From assembly GCF_030295425.1 (NCBI RefSeq), contig NZ_AP027081.1, positions 1,984,001-2,048,000 of the forward strand: a stretch of 64,000 nt of DNA, written 5' to 3'. The stretch is from Mesoterricola sediminis (GTDB lineage Bacteria > Acidobacteriota > Holophagae > Holophagales > Holophagaceae). Made by a program: the position numbers and the translations under genes. The notes below the pieces were generated by a model. It was not told where the DNA came from. It saw only the letters and a list, made by a program, of their open reading frames with translations, and did no database searches. This document shows positions 16,139-62,396 of the stretch, piece after piece. Position 1 is the stretch's first letter; each line of letters starts with the position of its first letter.

Positions 16139-16310
16139 CGATCGAATCACCTCGAATCACCTCGAATCACCGGGACGGCCTTGTTCCGATCCTTCGTGCT
16201 GGCGAGGGTGAGTAGAAAACCTCGGCGCACTCGGCGTACGGGCTCTTTACTTGCCCTTGCCGTTGCGAAGGTTTGGGACACGATCGTTCCTGTGATTCGA
16301 TCTACCTGCA
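16139..16310. repeat. Two opposed copies of a dispersed intergenic repeat
   Basis: Two related units lie head to head. 16139-16218 is in minus orientation and shares the core TTCCGATCCTTCGTGCTGG; 16219-16310 is in plus orientation with CTCGGCGCACTCGGCGTACG and ending GTGATTCGATCTACC. Both match units at 58791-58814, 60108-60330, 60521-60779 and 60812-60961. The outer end of the first unit is expanded to three tandem copies of TCGAATCACC (16142-16171). Before the insertions this pair would have separated the convergent ClC and phosphofructokinase genes. No ORF is convincing here. Confidence 0.8.
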
Positions 16311-16314
16311 CTAG

Positions 16315-17803
16315 CACTACTGTGTCAATAATCAAGCGCATTGGCCCCTCCCGCACGCCGGGCAACAGGATAGAGAGCGAATCAGAATTCGCTCAAGGCG
16401 CCTGCGCAGCGTCGTGATTGAGTAGGGCGAATGGCGTTCAGGCCGGAACGGGCCCATGTCCTCTAGGAAGGGGTCTGGCTCCTGGGGGTGCATGGACGAA
16501 CTCAAAGATGGATTGGATCGTAGGGGGGGAAAGGCGGCTACGTTCCGCCACGATGAAGGCATAAGTGGCGGCGCATAGGCTCAGGTGGTGGTGAAGGCCC
16601 CTCCATCCGCGACCTTCGTAATGATCTAGGCCAAGCTCGTCCTTCATTTCTTGGTAGTCCCGTTCGATTCTCCAGCGGAGCTTTGTTGTTCTGACGAGTT
16701 GGGCAATCGGTGTATTGCTGGGAAGGGTGGAGAGCCAGTATTTCGTCGGCTCAGCCTCTTTCTCGGGCCATTCGATGAGAAGCCACTCCTCTGGGCGCAA
16801 TTCTGCTTTCTCGTATCCCCTCCTCGCAGAATGAACGCGCAGCGCCACGAATCGAGATTCCATGAGACCGCGAGTGCCCTCTCCCCAGACCACCCGCTGC
16901 CAATCCTTTTTCGGCGTGCTTTCCGCCAAGGCTTTAACGGAGACGGGCTGGTGCTCATCATCGCGGCGCAGATTCTGTCCTGGACGCCCCTTTCCGCCAC
17001 GCCCTCTCGCCGGCAGAGGGGCATTTCCATTAGCCCATACCAAAGCTGTTTTCGCGATGCCTACGGCATAGACCAAATTGCGCTCGGATAACGCTTCACG
17101 AAATGCGCCGCAGTCTCCATATCCAGCATCCGCCAACACGGGGAGGTCGGGGACCTGATCCTGTCTTTGGGCATCGATCAGCGCCAACGCTATCTGCCAC
17201 TTGGGCATGAACACGACTTCCTTTGGAACCCCAGCCCCATCACGCCGGTCCCGGTCATTCGCCCAGGCTTCTGGAAGGTACAGGCGGAAACCCACCGGCA
17301 CGCTGGCCCAGCGAGAGGCCATGGACAAGCTGACCACGTTCTGGCAATTGGCCGTCTTTCCGAATGGACCGCAATACTGGTGGCCAACTCCGACTGAATG
17401 CGTTCCTTTTTTCGGGAATGCAGTGTCGTCAACGATCCACGCCTCGATAGGCCCTTGGATTTCCATGGCCTCGCGGGCATAGGACCTGACAACACGAAGA
17501 ACTGCTTCATCGCTCCAGGACGCTTGGGCCACCAAGTGATGCAGGGACTGGTGCCGAGCCTGAACGTGGGCCGGATCCAACCTGGCAGCCATTGGCTCGA
17601 TGCTCTTTCTGTCTCCCGGAAGAATCAAGCCCTGACAATACAACGTCAAAGGAGCCCGCCGATCGGCATGGCCAACAGCCTTAACTAACTGATCAGCGTA
17701 TGCATCAAACCGCGCCCGACTTTCGATGGATTCGCTCATAGATAGCCCCACCTTAGAACATAGGCAGGACGTTCTGCTCGTCAAGCTTTATGACACAGTA
17801 GTG
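16315..17803 (-). mobile_element. Complete IS701-family insertion sequence
   Basis: 1489 bp bounded by inverted ends CACTACTGTGTCA (left at 16315, right complement ending at 17803) and flanked on both sides by CTAG (16311-16314, 17804-17807), the 4-bp target duplication expected of this family. It holds one intact transposase gene on the minus strand. Base composition is visibly lower in GC than the host genes. Perfect ends, target duplication and an intact ORF suggest a recent, possibly active insertion. Its right CTAG is also the left target copy of the IS5-family element that follows. Confidence 0.92.
16438..17739 (-). CDS. IS701-family transposase
   Basis: DDE transposase of 433 residues from the start MSESIESRARFDAYADQL, which has AAGGTGGGG upstream; 15 extra codons lie upstream in frame but extend towards the terminal repeat. 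The family motif WIVDDTAFPKKGTHSVGV carries the first catalytic Asp, VLADAGYGD the second region and RWRIERDYQEMKDELGLDHYEG-type sequence the Glu region. It is uninterrupted. It is unrelated to the surrounding host genes. Confidence 0.93.
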   Translation of the reverse strand: MSESIESRARFDAYADQLVKAVGHADRRAPLTLYCQGLILPGDRKSIEPMAARLDPAHVQARHQSLHHLVAQASWSDEAVLRVVRSYAREAMEIQGPIEAWIVDDTAFPKKGTHSVGVGHQYCGPFGKTANCQNVVSLSMASRWASVPVGFRLYLPEAWANDRDRRDGAGVPKEVVFMPKWQIALALIDAQRQDQVPDLPVLADAGYGDCGAFREALSERNLVYAVGIAKTALVWANGNAPLPARGRGGKGRPGQNLRRDDEHQPVSVKALAESTPKKDWQRVVWGEGTRGLMESRFVALRVHSARRGYEKAELRPEEWLLIEWPEKEAEPTKYWLSTLPSNTPIAQLVRTTKLRWRIERDYQEMKDELGLDHYEGRGWRGLHHHLSLCAATYAFIVAERSRLSPPTIQSIFEFVHAPPGARPLPRGHGPVPA

Positions 17804-17895
17804 CTAGGCTGTGTTCGGAATCTATAGATTAGATAAATAGTTGACTTGTACTCATACGTAAAGGCTCGTACACCACGAATTTTCCTGGGGTAACG

Positions 17896-18282
17896 ATGCC
17901 GAGACGTTTCCTGACCGATGCCATGTGGGCAAAGCTTGAACCGCTCCTTCCGCCAGAGCGTGGAGGGATGGGGCGATCCCGTCACCCCAACCGTCCCATG
18001 GTGGAGGCGATCCTGTGGAGGCACAGGACTGGGGCGCCGTGGAGGGACCTGCCGGAGGAATTTGGACCTTGGAGAAGCGTGTACACGCGATTTGAGGCCT
18101 GGACCAAGCGCGGCGTGTGGCAAAGGATCCTGGAGTTCCTGCGCAAGGAAGCCGACCTGGAGTGGGTCATGCTGGATGGCACCATCATTCGCGCTCATCA
18201 ACCTTCAGCAGGCAAAAGGGGGGGCTCTGGAACCAGGCGCTCGGACGATCTCGGGGTGGATGCTCGACCAGGATCCATTTGA
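17896..18282 (+). CDS. IS5-family transposase, orfA
   Basis: The zero frame starts MPRRFLTDAMWAKLEPLLPP, the typical N-terminus of IS5/IS427 transposases, and runs through the first catalytic Asp region (VMLDGTIIRAHQ). It then reaches a homopolymer A4G7 at 18214-18224 and soon runs into an unrelated tail. Continuation in the -1 frame restores the family sequence (orfB). This arrangement is characteristic of IS427-group elements, which make the full transposase by -1 frameshifting. Confidence 0.88.
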   Translation: MPRRFLTDAMWAKLEPLLPPERGGMGRSRHPNRPMVEAILWRHRTGAPWRDLPEEFGPWRSVYTRFEAWTKRGVWQRILEFLRKEADLEWVMLDGTIIRAHQPSAGKRGGSGTRRSDDLGVDARPGSI

Positions 18283-18650
18283 TCTGCGATGCCCACGGTA
18301 ATCCTTTGGATTTCCTGGTCACTCCGGGGCAAGCCCATGAAAGCCGGTCTGCTGAAGGATTGCTGTGCGGTTGGCAGGCAGAGTACGGGTTCGGAGATCG
18401 GGCCTACGATGGGAACCCGGTAAGGAAGGCGATCGAGGCCATGGGTGCGACAGCCGTCATCCCACCTCATCCCCGGCGCAAGAATCCGGCGGCCTGGGAC
18501 TCACACCTATACAAGGCCCGCCATGCCATCGAGCATGGGTTCGCCAAGCTCAAACAGTTCAGGGCGCTGGCCACCAGGTTCGACAAAACGGCGCGAAGTT
18601 TCTCAGCCCAGGTGGCTTTGGCCTGCATCGTGATCTGGCTGAGGCTATGA
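18117..18650 (+). CDS. IS5-family transposase, orfB (by -1 frameshift)
   Basis: The open frame extends from 18117, but only the part after the A4G7 run (from about 18216) is real transposase: GLWNQALGRSRGGCSTRIHL, then GDRAYDGNPVRKAIE with the second Asp and the C-terminal segment with ARHAIEHGFAKLKQF, where the Glu lies. It is in the -1 frame relative to orfA. A fused orfAB protein would be about 250 residues. The frame is intact to its stop. Confidence 0.88.
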   Translation: MAKDPGVPAQGSRPGVGHAGWHHHSRSSTFSRQKGGLWNQALGRSRGGCSTRIHLICDAHGNPLDFLVTPGQAHESRSAEGLLCGWQAEYGFGDRAYDGNPVRKAIEAMGATAVIPPHPRRKNPAAWDSHLYKARHAIEHGFAKLKQFRALATRFDKTARSFSAQVALACIVIWLRL

Positions 18651-18688
18651 GCGGAGGGTGACAAGCGTTCCGGATCCTCATTGATCCT

Positions 18689-18988
18689 ATGAAACGCGGA
18701 GGCGCGGAGGATCTCGCAGAGGGTCGCGGAGGAAAGCGCTCCTGGAACCTGCCCCTGGATATCGAGTGGAGGGGGCTTGTGGTTGAGCGGGCCTACCGGC
18801 TGGATTTGCTGGTTGACGACCTCGTGGTCGTGGAGGCTAAGGCGGTCGAGAAACTGATGGATGCCCACTTCGCGCAACTGAACACCCAGCTGCGTTTCAG
18901 CGGAATGGAGGTCGGCCTGCTCCTCAATTTCCATCAGTGGCCTTTCAAAGACGGTGGAATCAAGCGGGTGATACATCCAAGGGCTTGA
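18689..18988 (+). pseudogene. GxxExxY-family protein fragment carried inside the IS5-family element
   Basis: From about residue 22 this 99-residue ORF matches the C-terminal two thirds of GxxExxY proteins (ERAYRLDLLVDDLVVVEAKA, QLRFSGMEVGLLLNFH, GGIKRVI). The N-terminal part that contains the naming G-x-x-E-x-x-Y motif is absent and replaced by residues encoded by a GC-rich repeat (MKRGGAEDLAEGRGG). The same roughly 45-bp repeat recurs inverted just after the ORF, at about 18984-19039. The ORF is therefore a fragment framed by inverted repeats and hitch-hiking in the transposon. Its function is unknown; the family has a PD-(D/E)XK-like look. Confidence 0.65.
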
Positions 18989-19039
18989 TCCTTTCTCCGC
19001 GAGCCTCAGCGAGATCCTCCGCGCCTCCGCGTTCCAATA
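18690..19039. repeat. Inverted GC-rich repeat pair around the GxxExxY fragment
   Basis: The left copy (about 18692-18740) reads ACGCGGAGGCGCGGAGGATC and continues with a CTCGC-GAGG-type run. The right copy (about 18984-19035) is its near-perfect reverse complement, containing GATCCTCCGCGCCTCCGCGT. The unit has an internal period of about 10-12 bases built on CGCGGAGG. The pair is conserved in the second IS copy (58931-58985 and 59175-59225). It may fold into a long hairpin or mark a separate mobile module captured by the IS. Confidence 0.7.
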
Positions 19040-19156
19040 GGATGCTGCGAATGCGCGGCGCCATCAGGCACTGCAGCACAGACTCACTATTCCAGCTCCT
19101 TCATGCTCCGGCACGGATGGGTATTAGCCATTACTATCCTAGATTACGAACACACC

Positions 19157-20311
19157 CTAGTAGAGGAACATGGGTTTCCCCTCGACATGCCGGACCTTGG
19201 GGCGGTAGTTCTCCTTGTCGTAGAGTTCGGCGACGTCCACGCGCTTGAGGCCCTGGGTGATGGTCGACATGGGGACGCTGGTGTAGGTGCCGTTGCGCAG
19301 GGCCACGAGGCGGTTGCGCTCGCCGCCCTTGATGATGTTGATGGCGACGTTGGCGAAGTTGACGGCGACCATGAGGTCCAGGCTGTCGGGGGCCCCGGAG
19401 CGCATGAGGTAGCTCACCTGCTGGTTGAGCACGTCCTGGCCGGTGAGCTTCTTCATGGCCTCGCCCAGGATGTGGCCGATGCCGCCGAGCTTCTTGTGGC
19501 CGTAGGCGTCCTCCTCCCCGTACTCCACGGGGACGCCACCGGCCATGTGGGCGCCCTCGCTCACGGTGATCATGGCGTAGTTGCTGGGGTTGTTCCGCTT
19601 GTCGGACATGATCTTCTCGGCGACCCTCACGGGGTCGAAGGGGACCTCGCTGATGAGGGCCCGGTCGACGCCGGCGAGGTACGAGGCGAGAAGGGAGGTC
19701 TCCCCGGAGTTCCGGCCGAAGAGCTCCACGATGGCGATGCGCTCGTGGGAGCCCGCGGAGGTGCGGAGCTGGTGGATGAACTCGACGCTCCGGGTGACGG
19801 CGGTGGAGAAGCCGATGCAGTAGTCCGTCCCGAAGATGTCGTTGTCCATGGTCTTGGGGATGGCGACGGTGGAGACGCCCTCCTGGTGCATCCGCTCGCC
19901 GTACGACAGGGTGTCGTCCCCGCCGATGGGGATGAGGATGTCGATGCCCAGGTGCTCGATCACCTTGAGGACGTGATCGGTGAAGTCGAAGGGCCCCTGC
20001 TGGTCGAGCTCGATCCGGCCCTTGAGGAAGTCGGGGACGTCCTTGAGGCGGACCTTGGCGGGGTTGGTGCGGCTGGTGTGGAGGAAGGTGCCGCCGGTGC
20101 GGTCCACGGTGCGCGTGTTCAGCTTGTCCAGCGTCATCACGCAGCGGAAGTGGGATTCGGGGTCGTCCAGGTTGTATTCCAGGAGGCCCGCCCAGCCCCG
20201 GCGGATGCCGAGGACCTCGAAGCCCTCCTCGTTGGCGCGCTGGACGAGCATCTTGATGCAGGGATTCAGGCCGGGGACATCGCCTCCGCCGGTCAGGACG
20301 CCGATGCGCAT
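19157..20311 (-). CDS. 6-phosphofructokinase, probably PPi-dependent
   Basis: 384 residues of the PfkA superfamily, close in length and ending (KPMFLY) to the actinobacterial long form. It phosphorylates fructose 6-phosphate at C1. Two residues decide the phosphoryl donor: GGDDT at 130-134 has Asp133 where ATP enzymes have Gly (GGDGS), and PKTMDND at 152-158 has Lys153 where E. coli has Gly. That Asp plus Lys pair is typical of PPi-dependent enzymes, so a reversible glycolytic/gluconeogenic role is predicted. The stop TAG lies within the CTAG target of the adjoining IS, so the protein is complete despite the insertion. Confidence 0.9.
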
Positions 20312-58814: not shown

Positions 58815-58999
58815 GGTGTGTTCGTAATCTAGGATAGTAATGGCTAATACCCATCCGTGCCGGAGCATTGAGGAGCTGGAATAGTGAGTCTGTGCTGCAG
58901 TGCCTGATGGCGCCACGCATTCGCAGGATCCTATTGGAACGCGGAGGCGCGGAGGATCTCGCTGAGGCTCGCGGAGAAAGGATCAAGCCCTTGTATGTA

Positions 59000-59224
59000 T
59001 CACCCGCTTGATTCCACCGTCTTTGAAAGGCCACTGACGGAAATTGAGGAGCAGGCCGACCTCCATTCCGCCTTAGCCTCCACGACCACGAGGTCGTCTA
59101 CCAGCAAATCCAGCCGGTAGGCCCGCTCAACCACAAGCCCCCTCCACTCGATATCCAGGGGCAGGTTCCAGGAGCGCTTTCCTCCGCGACCCTCTGCGAG
59201 ATCCTCCGCGCCTCCGCGTTTCAT
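59000..59224 (-). pseudogene. GxxExxY fragment, further truncated
   Basis: Same ORF as at 18689-18988 through VVVEAKA, then a 58-bp deletion removes the KAVEKLMDAHFAQLNTQLRF region and shifts the frame, giving an unrelated tail of 74 residues in total. The deletion joins at short GCGG-type matches. It lies between the same inverted GC-rich repeats. Confidence 0.75.
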
Positions 59225-59262
59225 AGGATCAATGAGGATCCGGAACGCTTGTCACCCTCCGC

Positions 59263-60019
59263 TCATAGCCTCAGCCAGATCACGATGCAGGCCAAAGCCA
59301 CCTGGGCTGAGAAACTTCGCGCCGTTTTGTCGAACCTGGTGGCCAGCGCCCTGAACTGTTTGAGCTTGGCGAACCCATGCTCGATGGCATGGCGGGCCTT
59401 GTATAGGTGTGAGTCCCAGGCCGCCGGATTCTTGCGCCGGGGATGAGGTGGGATGACGGCTGTCGCACCCATGGCCTCGATCGCCTTCCTTACCGGGTTC
59501 CCATCGTAGGCCCGATCTCCGAACACGTACTCTGCCTGCCAACCGCACAGCAATCCTTCAGCAGACCGGCTTTCATGGGCTTGCCCCGGAGTGACCAGGA
59601 AATCCAAAGGATTACCGTGGGCATCGCAGATCAAATGGATCTTGGTCGAGCATCCACCCCGAGATCGTCCGAGCGCCTGGTTCCAGAGCCCCCCCCCTTT
59701 TGCCTGCTGAATGTTGATGAGCGCGAATGATGGTGCCATCCAGCATGACCCACTCCAGGTCGGCTTCCTTGCGCAGGAACTCCAGGATCCTTTGCCACAC
59801 GCCGCGCTTGGTCCAGGCCTCAAATCGCGTGTACACGCTTGTCCAAGGTCCAAATTCCTCCGGCAGGTCCCTCCACGGCGCCCCAGTCCTGTGCCTCCAC
59901 AGGATCGCCTCCACCATGGGACGGTTGGGGTGACGGGATCGCCCCATCCCTCCACGCTCTGGCGGAATGAGCGGTTCAAGCTTTGCCCACATGGCATCGG
60001 TCAGGAAACTTCTCGGCAT
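59263..60019 (-). pseudogene. IS5-family transposase of copy 2, frameshift run altered
   Basis: orfA (60019 to 59612) and orfB (59997 to 59263 as open frame; real part from about 59697) match copy 1 almost residue for residue. The frameshift run has nine G instead of seven (A4G9 on the coding strand, 59692-59704), so a -1 slip no longer joins orfA to orfB; a +1 or -2 slip or transcriptional slippage would be needed. All catalytic regions are otherwise intact. An extra-G sequencing error cannot be excluded. Confidence 0.7.
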
Positions 60020-60110
60020 CGTTACCCCAGGAAAATTCGTGGTGTACGAGCCTTTACGTATGAGTACAAGTTAACTATTTATCTAATCTATAGATTCCGA
60101 ACACAGCCTA

Positions 60111-60330
60111 GTTCCGATCCTTCGTGCTGGCAAGGGTGAGTAAAAATCCCGTACGCTGAGTGCGCCGAGAAGCCGAGTCACGCTGAGCCAGCTTCGCGAT
60201 CCACCGCGCCGACCAGGCCCTGGCCCGCTGGCGCGGGCCGCGATGCTGCGCATCGCCCGGCTGGGGGCTCCGGGCCTTCCGCATGCACGCCTGTGGGTGC
60301 CCTGCGCCCCCAGCCTTGGACGGGCCTGGG
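60111..60330 (-). repeat. Left arm of a long inverted repeat
   Basis: About 220 bp that pairs with 60521-60751 at roughly 95% identity, with one 12-base gap (near 60215) and scattered changes. The outer half is the dispersed repeat family (TTCCGATCCTTCGTGCTGGC); the inner half, ending CCTTGGACGGGCCTGGG, is specific to this locus. No convincing ORF. Confidence 0.85.
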
Positions 60331-60335
60331 CTCAG

Positions 60336-60488
60336 CCCCGAGGCCTTGGCCATGGTGGTCATCCGCACGATCTCGGCCTTGCGCTCCGCCGTGCGGGTGG
60401 CCTTTCGCCCCCGGCCCGGAGCAGCCTGGTCGATACCCTGGCATCCGGCCTCCAGGAACCGGTACCGTCGGACGGGGTTGTAACCCAC
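60336..60488 (-). pseudogene. IS630-family transposase remnant in the inverted-repeat loop
   Basis: Minus-strand codons give VGYNPVRRYRFLEAGCQGID, then QAAPGRGRKATRTAERKAEIVRM, matching the helix-turn-helix linker region of IS630 transposases (RRFLEEGLxGLxDxPRPGRK, followed by an Ile-Val helix). Only about 50 residues survive. The remnant fills the loop between the two arms of the long inverted repeat. Confidence 0.6.
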
Positions 60489-60520
60489 CTGGAGCTGGTC
60501 GAAGGTGGGCCGAACCTCCG

Positions 60521-60779
60521 ACCCAGGCCCGTCCAAGGCTGGGGGCGCAGGGCACCCACAGGCATGCATGCGGAAGGCCCGGAGCCCCCAGCCGGGCGAT
60601 GCGCAGCATCGCGGCCCGCGCCAGCGGGCCAGGGCCTGGGTGGTATGGGTCGGCGCGGTGGATCGCGAAGCTGGCTCAGCGTAACCCGGCGTCTCGGCGC
60701 ACTCGGCGTACGGGTTTTTTACTCACCCTCGCCAGCACGAAGGATCGGAACAAGGCGGTTCCCGTGATTCGATCTACCG
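60521..60779 (+). repeat. Right arm of the long inverted repeat plus dispersed unit
   Basis: 60521-60751 mirrors 60111-60330. From 60626 to 60779 the sequence is the full plus-orientation dispersed unit: GGCCTGGGTGGTATGGGTCG through CTCGGCGCACTCGGCGTACG and TACTCACCCTCGCCAGCACG to GTGATTCGATCTACC. It is the best preserved copy in the window. Confidence 0.85.
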
Positions 60780-60811
60780 ACACGAGCCCAGCTGGGTCAG
60801 GAGGCGATTGA

Positions 60812-60961
60812 GGGCCAAGGCCTGGGTGGCATGGGTCGGCGTGCTGAACCGCGAAGCTGGCTCAGCGTGACGCGGCGTCTCGGCGAACTCGGCGTACGGG
60901 TTTTTTACTCACCCTCGCCAGCACGAAGGATCGGGACCCGATCGTTCAGGTGATTCGATCC
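60812..60961 (+). repeat. Dispersed repeat unit, direct copy
   Basis: A 150-bp direct repeat of 60626-60779 at about 88-90% identity, 32 bp downstream of it, ending GTGATTCGATCC 7 bp before the hydG stop. The whole interval 60112-60968 therefore holds only repeats and a transposase remnant; no gene is supported. Confidence 0.85.
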
Positions 60962-60968
60962 AACGGCC

Positions 60969-62396
60969 CTAGAAACGGAGGTCGCGCTCGCCGGCGCGGA
61001 TGCGCTCCAGGTAGGCTTCGGCGGCGGTGCGCGCCTTGGGGTTGGGGATGGTGGCCAGCTCCTTGGCGATGATGGCCTCGCCCAGGCCGCGCAGCTCGGT
61101 GTCGCCGTAGTCCTCGATGTACTCCATGAGGGTGAGGAGGGCGTTGGGCTGGCAGACGTTGGCGATCTGGCCGCTCTTGGCGAGCTTCATGAACCGGTCG
61201 CCGGTGCGGCCTTCCCGGTAGCAGGCGGTGCAGTAGCTGGGGATGTAGCCGTCCCGCAGCAGGTCCTTGAGGACCTCGGTGGGGCTGCGGTGGTCGGCGG
61301 GCTCGAACTGGGGCACGGGCTCGGGCTCGCCCAGCTTGTGGGTCTGGGCGTAGCCGCCCACGCCGGTGCAGGAGCCGGCGCTGACCTGGGAGATGCCCAG
61401 GGCGATGACCTCCTCGCGGTAGCCCATGGGCTCGCGGGTGGAGAGGATCATGCCGGTGTAGGGCACGGCGAGGCGGAGCACGGCGACCACCTTCTTGAAG
61501 TCGTCGTCCCCGACCAGGTGCGGGAACTGGCTGGCGGTGACGCCGCTGGCGCTGCGGATGCGGGGCACGGACAGGGTGTGGGGGCCCACGCCCAGGGCCG
61601 CTTCCAGGTGCTCCCCGTGCATGAGCATGGCGACGGTGTCGTAGCGCCAGTCGTAGAGGCCGTAGAGCACGCCCAGACCGACGTCGTCGATGCCGGCCTT
61701 CATGGCGCGGTCGTGGGCCGTGGTGTGCCATTCGTAGTTGCGCTTGGGCCCGCCCCGGTGGACGGTCTGGTACGTGGGCTTGTGGTAGGTCTCCTGGAAG
61801 AGGATGTAGGTGCCGATGCCCGCGTCCTTCAGGCGCCGGTAGTCCTCCTCCGTGGTGGCGGCCACGTTCACGTTCACGCGGCGGATGGCGCCGTTGTCGA
61901 ACTTGAGGGAATAGATGGTGGAGATGCACTCCAGGACGTAGTCGAGGGGGCAGTTGACGGGATCCTCGCCGACCTCCAGGGCCAGGCGCTTGTGGCCGAG
62001 GCCTTCGAGGACGCGGACCTCCTCGGCCAGCTCCGCCTGGTCCAGGCGCCGGCGGGGCATGGGATTGCCGTGGTTGTAGCCGCAGTACGAGCACTGGTTG
62101 ACGCAGAAGTCGGAGAGGTAGAGGGGGGCGAACATGACGATCCGCCGGCCGTAGATGTGCTCCTTGACGTGGCGGGCCAGCCTGAAGACCTCCTCCAGCA
62201 CCTGCGGGTCCTGGACGTCCAGGAGCACGGCGGCCTCGCGGTGGGTGAGCCCCCCGAAGCCGGCCGCCTTGTCCAGGATCGCCCGCACCCGGGCGGGGTC
62301 CTGGGCCGCGGTCCGGGCCGCCTCCAGCGTCTCCAGGATCTCTCCGTCGTGGATGAAGATCGCGGGGTCCATGGATGAGGGGTCGTAGGCGGTCAT
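60969..62396 (-). CDS. hydG: [FeFe]-hydrogenase maturation radical SAM enzyme HydG
   Basis: 475 residues. HydG cleaves tyrosine to supply CO and CN ligands of the H-cluster. The radical SAM motif is FCVNQCSYCGYNH (C-x3-C-x2-C), and the C-terminal auxiliary cluster motif is YCTACYREGRTGDRF followed by a Cys in QIANVCQPNA. LALEVGEDP and ETYHKPTY are further HydG features. Start MTAYDPSSMDP overlaps the upstream TM1266-type gene by ATGA. HydE and HydF are not in the window. Confidence 0.96.
   Translation of the reverse strand: MTAYDPSSMDPAIFIHDGEILETLEAARTAAQDPARVRAILDKAAGFGGLTHREAAVLLDVQDPQVLEEVFRLARHVKEHIYGRRIVMFAPLYLSDFCVNQCSYCGYNHGNPMPRRRLDQAELAEEVRVLEGLGHKRLALEVGEDPVNCPLDYVLECISTIYSLKFDNGAIRRVNVNVAATTEEDYRRLKDAGIGTYILFQETYHKPTYQTVHRGGPKRNYEWHTTAHDRAMKAGIDDVGLGVLYGLYDWRYDTVAMLMHGEHLEAALGVGPHTLSVPRIRSASGVTASQFPHLVGDDDFKKVVAVLRLAVPYTGMILSTREPMGYREEVIALGISQVSAGSCTGVGGYAQTHKLGEPEPVPQFEPADHRSPTEVLKDLLRDGYIPSYCTACYREGRTGDRFMKLAKSGQIANVCQPNALLTLMEYIEDYGDTELRGLGEAIIAKELATIPNPKARTAAEAYLERIRAGERDLRF

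Follow-up and report, generated by a model that had tools for sequence, protein, structure and literature searches.

The GxxExxY gene carried by an IS5-family element in the window (the whole stretch of DNA that was analyzed, 64 kb out of a 4.52-Mb single-contig genome) is best read as part of a homing-type mobile cassette that spreads by itself and has turned into a dispensable passenger of the insertion sequence (IS). We give this reading a probability of about 0.6. The cassette, about 480 bp long, would consist of inverted tandem-word arms around a small gene for a putative PD-(D/E)XK nuclease and would reside mostly in short intergenic spacers. The nuclease may cut an array of words or a spacer that lacks a cassette, and the cassette would then be copied in during repair, in a homing-like manner. 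An IS5-type element would have acquired one such cassette just behind its transposase stop, a harmless position, and carried it to dozens of sites, and a related IS would have acquired a different one. Deletions would have removed the nuclease in nearly all IS copies while the IS kept multiplying, because the nuclease is not needed for transposition. From the sequence comparisons described below, we infer the capture of the cassette by the IS, the role of the nuclease as the motor of cassette movement, and homing as the route of cassette spread.

The IS5-family element in the window

Two copies of the element lie in the window. Copy 1 occupies positions 17808-19156 on the forward strand, exactly where the original prediction had placed it, between CTAG target duplications at 17804-17807 and 19157-19160 that were read directly. 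Copy 2 (L008) occupies 58815-60107 on the reverse strand. The IS ends, GCTGTGTTCGGAATCTA / GGTGTGTTCGTAATCTA, are near-identical terminal repeats, and CTAG stands outside both ends in both window copies and in the intact genomic copy. The transposase of copy 1 is encoded on the forward strand by a first frame at 17896-18282 (NF033580, 139.9 bits; PF13340) and an overlapping second frame at 18117-18650 (NF033580, 147 bits; PF01609). Both frames exceed the NF033580 cut-off of 110 bits for an IS5-type DDE transposase, which confirms the predicted family. The element resembles other members of the IS5 family in that its DDE transposase spans two overlapping frames, its terminal repeats are short, and CTAG flanks it, and its ISfinder subgroup is presumably IS427/IS1031-like. 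A DDE_5 (PF13546) transposase gene was also observed at 16438-17784 on the reverse strand, immediately left of copy 1.

The cargo of copy 1 follows the transposase stop (18650) and precedes the right IS end. Its left word arm (18690-18734) and right word arm (18992-19036), both on the forward strand and together forming inverted repeat I1, are 45 nt long, 91% complementary, and composed of CGCGGAGG-like words, so that the inverted repeats said to bracket the GxxExxY open reading frame (ORF) are indeed present. The ORF itself (18689-18988, forward strand) is a C-terminal GxxExxY (PDDEXK_3; PF13366) remnant that matches TIGR04256 with 68.4 bits (cut-off 35) over profile positions 44-116 of 116, and the GxxExxY motif and the N-terminal half are missing. 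The original prediction described this ORF as truncated at its 5' end. It is incomplete, but comparison with the intact genomic copy revealed an internal 214-nt deletion, with its joint near 18757, that takes the start and the motif half rather than a simple 5' truncation. It was also stated that both window copies carry the same cargo. Both do carry it, but not in the same state, as copy 2, with its left arm at 59179-59223 (mapped from repeat pair I1) and its right arm at 58935-58979 (mapped from repeat pair I3), both on the reverse strand, has a further 54-nt deletion in addition to the 214-nt one. The GxxExxY ORFs of the window are probably dead because the GxxExxY half with residue E25 is absent.

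A second family of word arms (ACACCGAGTGCGCTGAGACACCGAG...) was found in the window at 60103-60985 and 16147-16420. These arms surround an apparent transposase fragment, no GxxExxY gene was seen there, and one window repeat of this type has IS copy 2 inserted in it. Inverted arms of the same type, of about 270 nt, also frame L033, a GxxExxY gene in another part of the genome.

Decay of the cargo among the IS copies of the genome

The genome holds about fifty copies of the IS. The transposase matches amount to 52 rows, some of which are two pieces of one copy, and 48 distinct copies were separated and compared; further matching places in the genome lie outside this set. A whole copy at 2,700,642-2,702,216 measures 1575 bp with its CTAGs and has, besides the transposase, a GxxExxY ORF that spans up to 146 codons, reads GLLEDPY at the motif, and scores 114.8 bits in the family test (TIGR04256 / PF13366, cut-off 35). 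In a second copy, the cargo ORF is whole and the transposase carries a deletion. Altogether, 2 of the 48 copies have an untouched cargo ORF, and the cargo of the other 46 carries deletions. The deletion ends form ten different sets, some of which may be variant alignments of a single event. The deletion seen most often occurs in 24 copies (17+4+2+1), and one additional copy is off by 3 nt. Among the 40 copies having both ends, both arms are retained in 35, with the ORF broken in 33 of those, and the transposase carries a deletion in 3. At joint 885/1428, read by eye in four copies, a 6-bp match (GATCCT) was found, and an overlap of 1-7 nt between the matching pieces is seen at most of the remaining joints.

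The cargo moves inside the IS as part of the mobile unit, as had been predicted. It is nevertheless dispensable: its deletion in nearly all copies shows that it is not required for the IS to multiply, and inside this IS it is mostly dead weight. The element is like other insertion sequences with a passenger gene in having a non-transposase gene within the IS ends. Unlike them, its passenger is a putative nuclease cassette with arms of its own that is broken in nearly every copy, and a related IS holds a different GxxExxY subfamily.

Related insertion sequences and probable repeated capture

Transposase matches at E 1e-20 or better were obtained in 6 of 60 genomes, with the source genome counted in both numbers. 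The same-genus genome G001 contains two copies of a related IS, with transposases that are 52-54% identical at the amino acid level and terminal repeats of GGGCTGTCGGCAAACC. In both copies, a GxxExxY gene lies directly behind the transposase with different words alongside. The arms of these two cargos are weak, and the arm scan did not single them out. The G001 cargo protein is 31% identical to the cargo of the window IS, and the two meet only at the root of a midpoint-rooted tree of GxxExxY domains with 151 tips. The nearest relative of the window cargo is L033 of the same genome (55% identical), at whose locus no match to the window IS was found. Another GxxExxY gene, L031, ends in an apparent remnant of a G001-type IS end. 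Because the related IS has a different GxxExxY gene at the same position, two separate captures probably took place at one tolerant place in the IS.

Among more distant relatives of the IS, three (L063, L064, and L065) have IS ends and no GxxExxY match, with a reckoned length of 832-839 bp, and one (L066) has neither clear ends nor a GxxExxY match. The possibility raised beforehand that the IS elsewhere is only ever without cargo thus applies to these three distant elements but not to the closest related IS, which carries a cassette. A pattern scan of the genome contigs for the transposase gave 107 matches with no relative among them. An IS5-like transposase, sought with a profile of five sequences, was found near 1 of 150 GxxExxY loci, and that locus had been chosen deliberately. 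IS capture of GxxExxY is rare, since only this locus adjoins an IS5-like transposase.

Inverted word arms around GxxExxY genes

The arms were tested by aligning the 400 nt left of a gene with the reverse complement of the 400 nt to its right. Left and right flanks from different loci served as the control, and the 99th percentile of these mismatched pairs was used as the threshold. In the Holophagaceae set, where 67 loci were usable after 3 of 70 were dropped for short flanks, 38 loci reached the threshold and 29 fell below it; at least three of the 38 (L141, L143, and L150) are long GC-rich palindromes rather than word arms. Locus L108, from a genome of the same family as the source genome, shares its arms with L209 (Holophagaceae bacterium UBA1801). 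The cross-phylum set consisted of the 80 loci that best matched one subfamily alignment; 5 of them were dropped. Across many phyla, arms at the threshold were found in 31 of these 75 loci (44 fell below), compared with 0 of 487 neighboring ORFs. Both arms lie within 120 nt of the GxxExxY domain in 20 of the 27 cross-phylum loci that score 45 or more. The originally proposed check was to look for the repeats next to GxxExxY genes with and without the IS: the arms follow GxxExxY genes generally and are not an IS feature, and the opposite outcome, repeats unlinked to GxxExxY genes, was not found in the cross-phylum comparison.

By eye, the arms are tandem arrays of words some 8-10 nt long (for example, CACAGAGG, CGCCAAGA, CACCGATGAA, CGCGAATGG, and CAGGATTAA), and a single cassette mostly repeats one word at both sides. 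The median length of 58 strong-arm cassettes is 480 bp (quartiles 465-518). When word profiles were compared, the nearest neighbor was another GxxExxY arm in 58 of 58 selected cassettes, many of the 58 representing one site in related species. The nearest neighbor was another IVP arm in 13 of 22 IVP arms, which is a weak test. The arms were also considered as transcription terminators, and this was dropped as the pairing runs across the gene. GxxExxY was present in 8 of 72,556 plasmid records.

When 800 kb of one relative was scanned for arm-framed stretches, two scored 50 or more, and the shuffled control gave none. The arms are not high-copy repeats in this relative, because the scan gave just these two stretches, one of which is a known cassette and the other a hairpin pair around another gene. 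At L321:12388-13446 (G063:C1:172388-173446), two AACCGCAGATGACGCAGATG word hairpins flank a 302-codon ORF resembling a lyase gene.

The GxxExxY protein

We know of no function for the GxxExxY family. Searches of PADLOC and PHROG with the intact protein gave no match at E 0.01. Twenty-four GxxExxY sequences share the invariant residues E25 (in GLLE..Y), D65, E75, K77, and Q89. The structure was predicted with a pLDDT of 94.5 and a pTM of 0.87, and its best structural match (VIA) is Cas4 SSO0001 (Z 9.7, rmsd 4.4, 100 residues aligned). The next matches, at Z 8.3 and below, a range that the tool rates as common, are mostly PD-(D/E)XK proteins. With Foldseek alone, no structure reached E 0.001. 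GxxExxY therefore models as a PD-(D/E)XK nuclease fold with catalytic residues. The model is like Cas4 and the archaeal Hjc-type PD-(D/E)XK nucleases in its fold and its E-D-ExK-Q residues; unlike them, GxxExxY comprises the core domain only, and a PDB sequence search with the family profile found no relative up to E=1. GxxExxY is mentioned in passing in the accessible part of PMC8934634, and a literature search at the level of titles and abstract openings found no description of GxxExxY cassettes.

Empty, occupied, and shared sites

For five cassettes, the outer flanks were joined and searched for in 22 genomes, for which Geothrix-like is a presumed label. The sites are called pilB-pilT, pyrC, and fadB, names that we assume from the flanking translations without a family search. 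Among the matches listed, the pilB-pilT spacer is contiguous, and thus empty, in 17 of the 22 genomes and split, or occupied, in 5. At three sites, spacers occupied by GxxExxY contain 425-563 extra bases, which start and end near the arms; in L294, there are 300 extra bases and the GxxExxY cassette is broken. Another check proposed originally was whether the repeats mark precise module ends at empty sites. They do so approximately, since the extra bases begin and stop near the arms, but base-exact ends and a target duplication are not visible among the matches listed, in which empty and occupied sites are about 82-87% identical. The ends could not be placed to the base because the empty sites are too diverged from the occupied ones.

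The pyrC site harbors different inserts depending on the species. L298-L301 have a GxxExxY cassette, L302-L307 have a short word hairpin alone, and L310-L312 have other short inserts. L308 and L309 have an insert of approximately 810 bp, in which an HNH-endonuclease ORF (PF01844) lies between CACCAAGACAC arms (L308:357-1040; L309:300-983). The HNH ORF of L308 matched restriction-enzyme and HNH families in PADLOC and PHROGs.

Selection and apparent movement

L144 and L145 carry a cassette at the same site. The cassettes differ at 1 of 480 positions, whereas the flanks differ at 55 of 1405 and 59 of 1416 (114 of 2821 together), and the clean stretch stops about 50 nt beyond the arms on each side. 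This pattern suggests that the cassette seems to have been transferred recently as a unit between species; both are draft genomes, of 270 and 70 contigs, and misassembly is a possible alternative. The original suggestion of a mobile module captured by the IS is supported in part, by the empty sites, this apparent interspecies move, and the second IS with another cassette.

Free-standing homing endonuclease genes, HNH and others, are known from intergenic sites. The GxxExxY cassettes are like them in having a small nuclease gene (predicted here) and a site that is filled in some genomes and empty in others, and two relatives carry an HNH cassette with word arms in a spacer that holds GxxExxY in other species. 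The apparent transfer in L144/L145, with its abrupt change from cassette to flanks, would be a further point of likeness. The GxxExxY cassettes are unlike these genes in the predicted PD-(D/E)XK fold, the inverted word arms, and the many unrelated sites.

In 53 of 54 same-site pairs, divergence is higher in the cassette gene than in its flanks. The dS of this gene is 0.6-1.75 at pilB-pilT and pyrC, apart from the identical pair, compared with 0.1-0.6 for the flanking genes, and at three sites it is mostly about 2-5 times that of the flanking genes; the L133 and L111 rows were set aside in this comparison for a wrongly framed flank ORF. The higher divergence can mean repeated arrival from different donors, and it can also mean faster evolution in place.

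Some of these data fit another explanation, in which a resident GxxExxY gene serves the host, for example in RNA processing or DNA repair, the arms act as a regulatory or processing stem in the operon transcript, and the IS copy is only a passenger. The dN/dS of the GxxExxY gene is 0.05-0.18 at three fixed sites (two pairs were not computable), and purifying selection of this strength would suit a host function as well. The arms are still recognizable between species in which the dS of the cassette gene is around or above 1. In addition, the left and right arms of the same cassette match each other better than a left and a right arm from separate genomes at all three sites (59.2 vs 54.7, 68 vs 61.8, and 43.8 vs 23.1), and at pilB-pilT the same-side arms from different genomes match still better (66.8 and 65.6). 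Against this explanation stand the patchy distribution, with one site empty in 17 of 22 related genomes, the presence of GxxExxY, an HNH gene, or bare hairpins in one spacer depending on the species, and the apparent move as a unit in L144/L145. The lack of a PADLOC or PHROG match for the intact protein at E 0.01 also speaks against it. A host function is therefore considered unlikely, and the homing-type cassette is preferred.

Comparison with 23S rRNA intervening sequences

In 22 of 26 usable loci (4 of 30 were dropped), genes for the 23S rRNA intervening-sequence protein (S23/IVP, TIGR02436; L241-L270) are framed in the same manner by different words. The intervening sequences and the GxxExxY cassettes are alike in that a small ORF lies within a few hundred bp in an inverted-repeat frame with a patchy distribution, and the IVP framing arms are tandem words too. 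Their proteins are unlike, as IVP is a four-helix bundle whereas GxxExxY has the predicted PD-(D/E)XK fold; the words differ as well, and the GxxExxY cassettes sit here in an IS or between protein genes and not in rRNA. TIGR02436 had no match in the source genome at E 0.001. The part of PMC4990558 that was available calls the function and origin of the intervening sequences unclear and describes these elements as having paired ends and being cut by RNase III, and the 23S rRNA IVP is named in a figure legend of PMC10910872.

This likeness leads to a further explanation, a selfish element that acts at the RNA level. Its arms would pair in the transcript, RNase III would excise the insert, insertion would thereby be tolerated, and the protein would not be the motor. 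Besides the shared framing, the location of the cassettes is consistent with it: in 43 of 56 cassettes the left arm begins no more than 60 nt past the stop codon of a co-directional ORF (150 codons or longer), compared with 64 of 901 random positions. The place behind the transposase stop of the IS is the same kind of location. Yet the orientation of the neighbors, determined by longest-ORF calling, is mildly biased at most (co-directional on the left in 39 of 54, on the right in 38 of 53, and on both sides in 27 of 53), an Rfam search of 14 loci gave no match, and the protein, the arm words, and the intergenic rather than ribosomal location all differ from those of the intervening sequences. 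An RNA-level element is thus still more doubtful than a host function. It is very improbable that no mobile cassette exists and that the IS acquired a neighboring GxxExxY gene once by chance, with ordinary repeats as arms; the rarity of IS capture and the loss of the cargo from most copies would suit this, but the arms follow GxxExxY across phyla, which already contradicts it, the second IS has another subfamily at the same place, and empty sites exist.

Significance of the cassettes

A broader form of the homing-type reading is more tentative, and we put it somewhat short of even. GxxExxY cassettes may represent a widespread and apparently undescribed homing-type class, in which the arms are carried along and change together. 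The class would have hot spots in common with HNH cassettes and hairpins of IVP-type words, and it would have been captured at least twice by IS5 elements, which would serve as a second vehicle.

If the cassette is inherited as a unit together with its arms, the GxxExxY family gains a testable role as mobile nuclease cassettes behind stop codons. The IS copies provide a natural experiment on which parts of the cassette can be lost. The 23S rRNA intervening sequences may belong, together with the GxxExxY cassettes, to a wider group of arm-framed cassettes.
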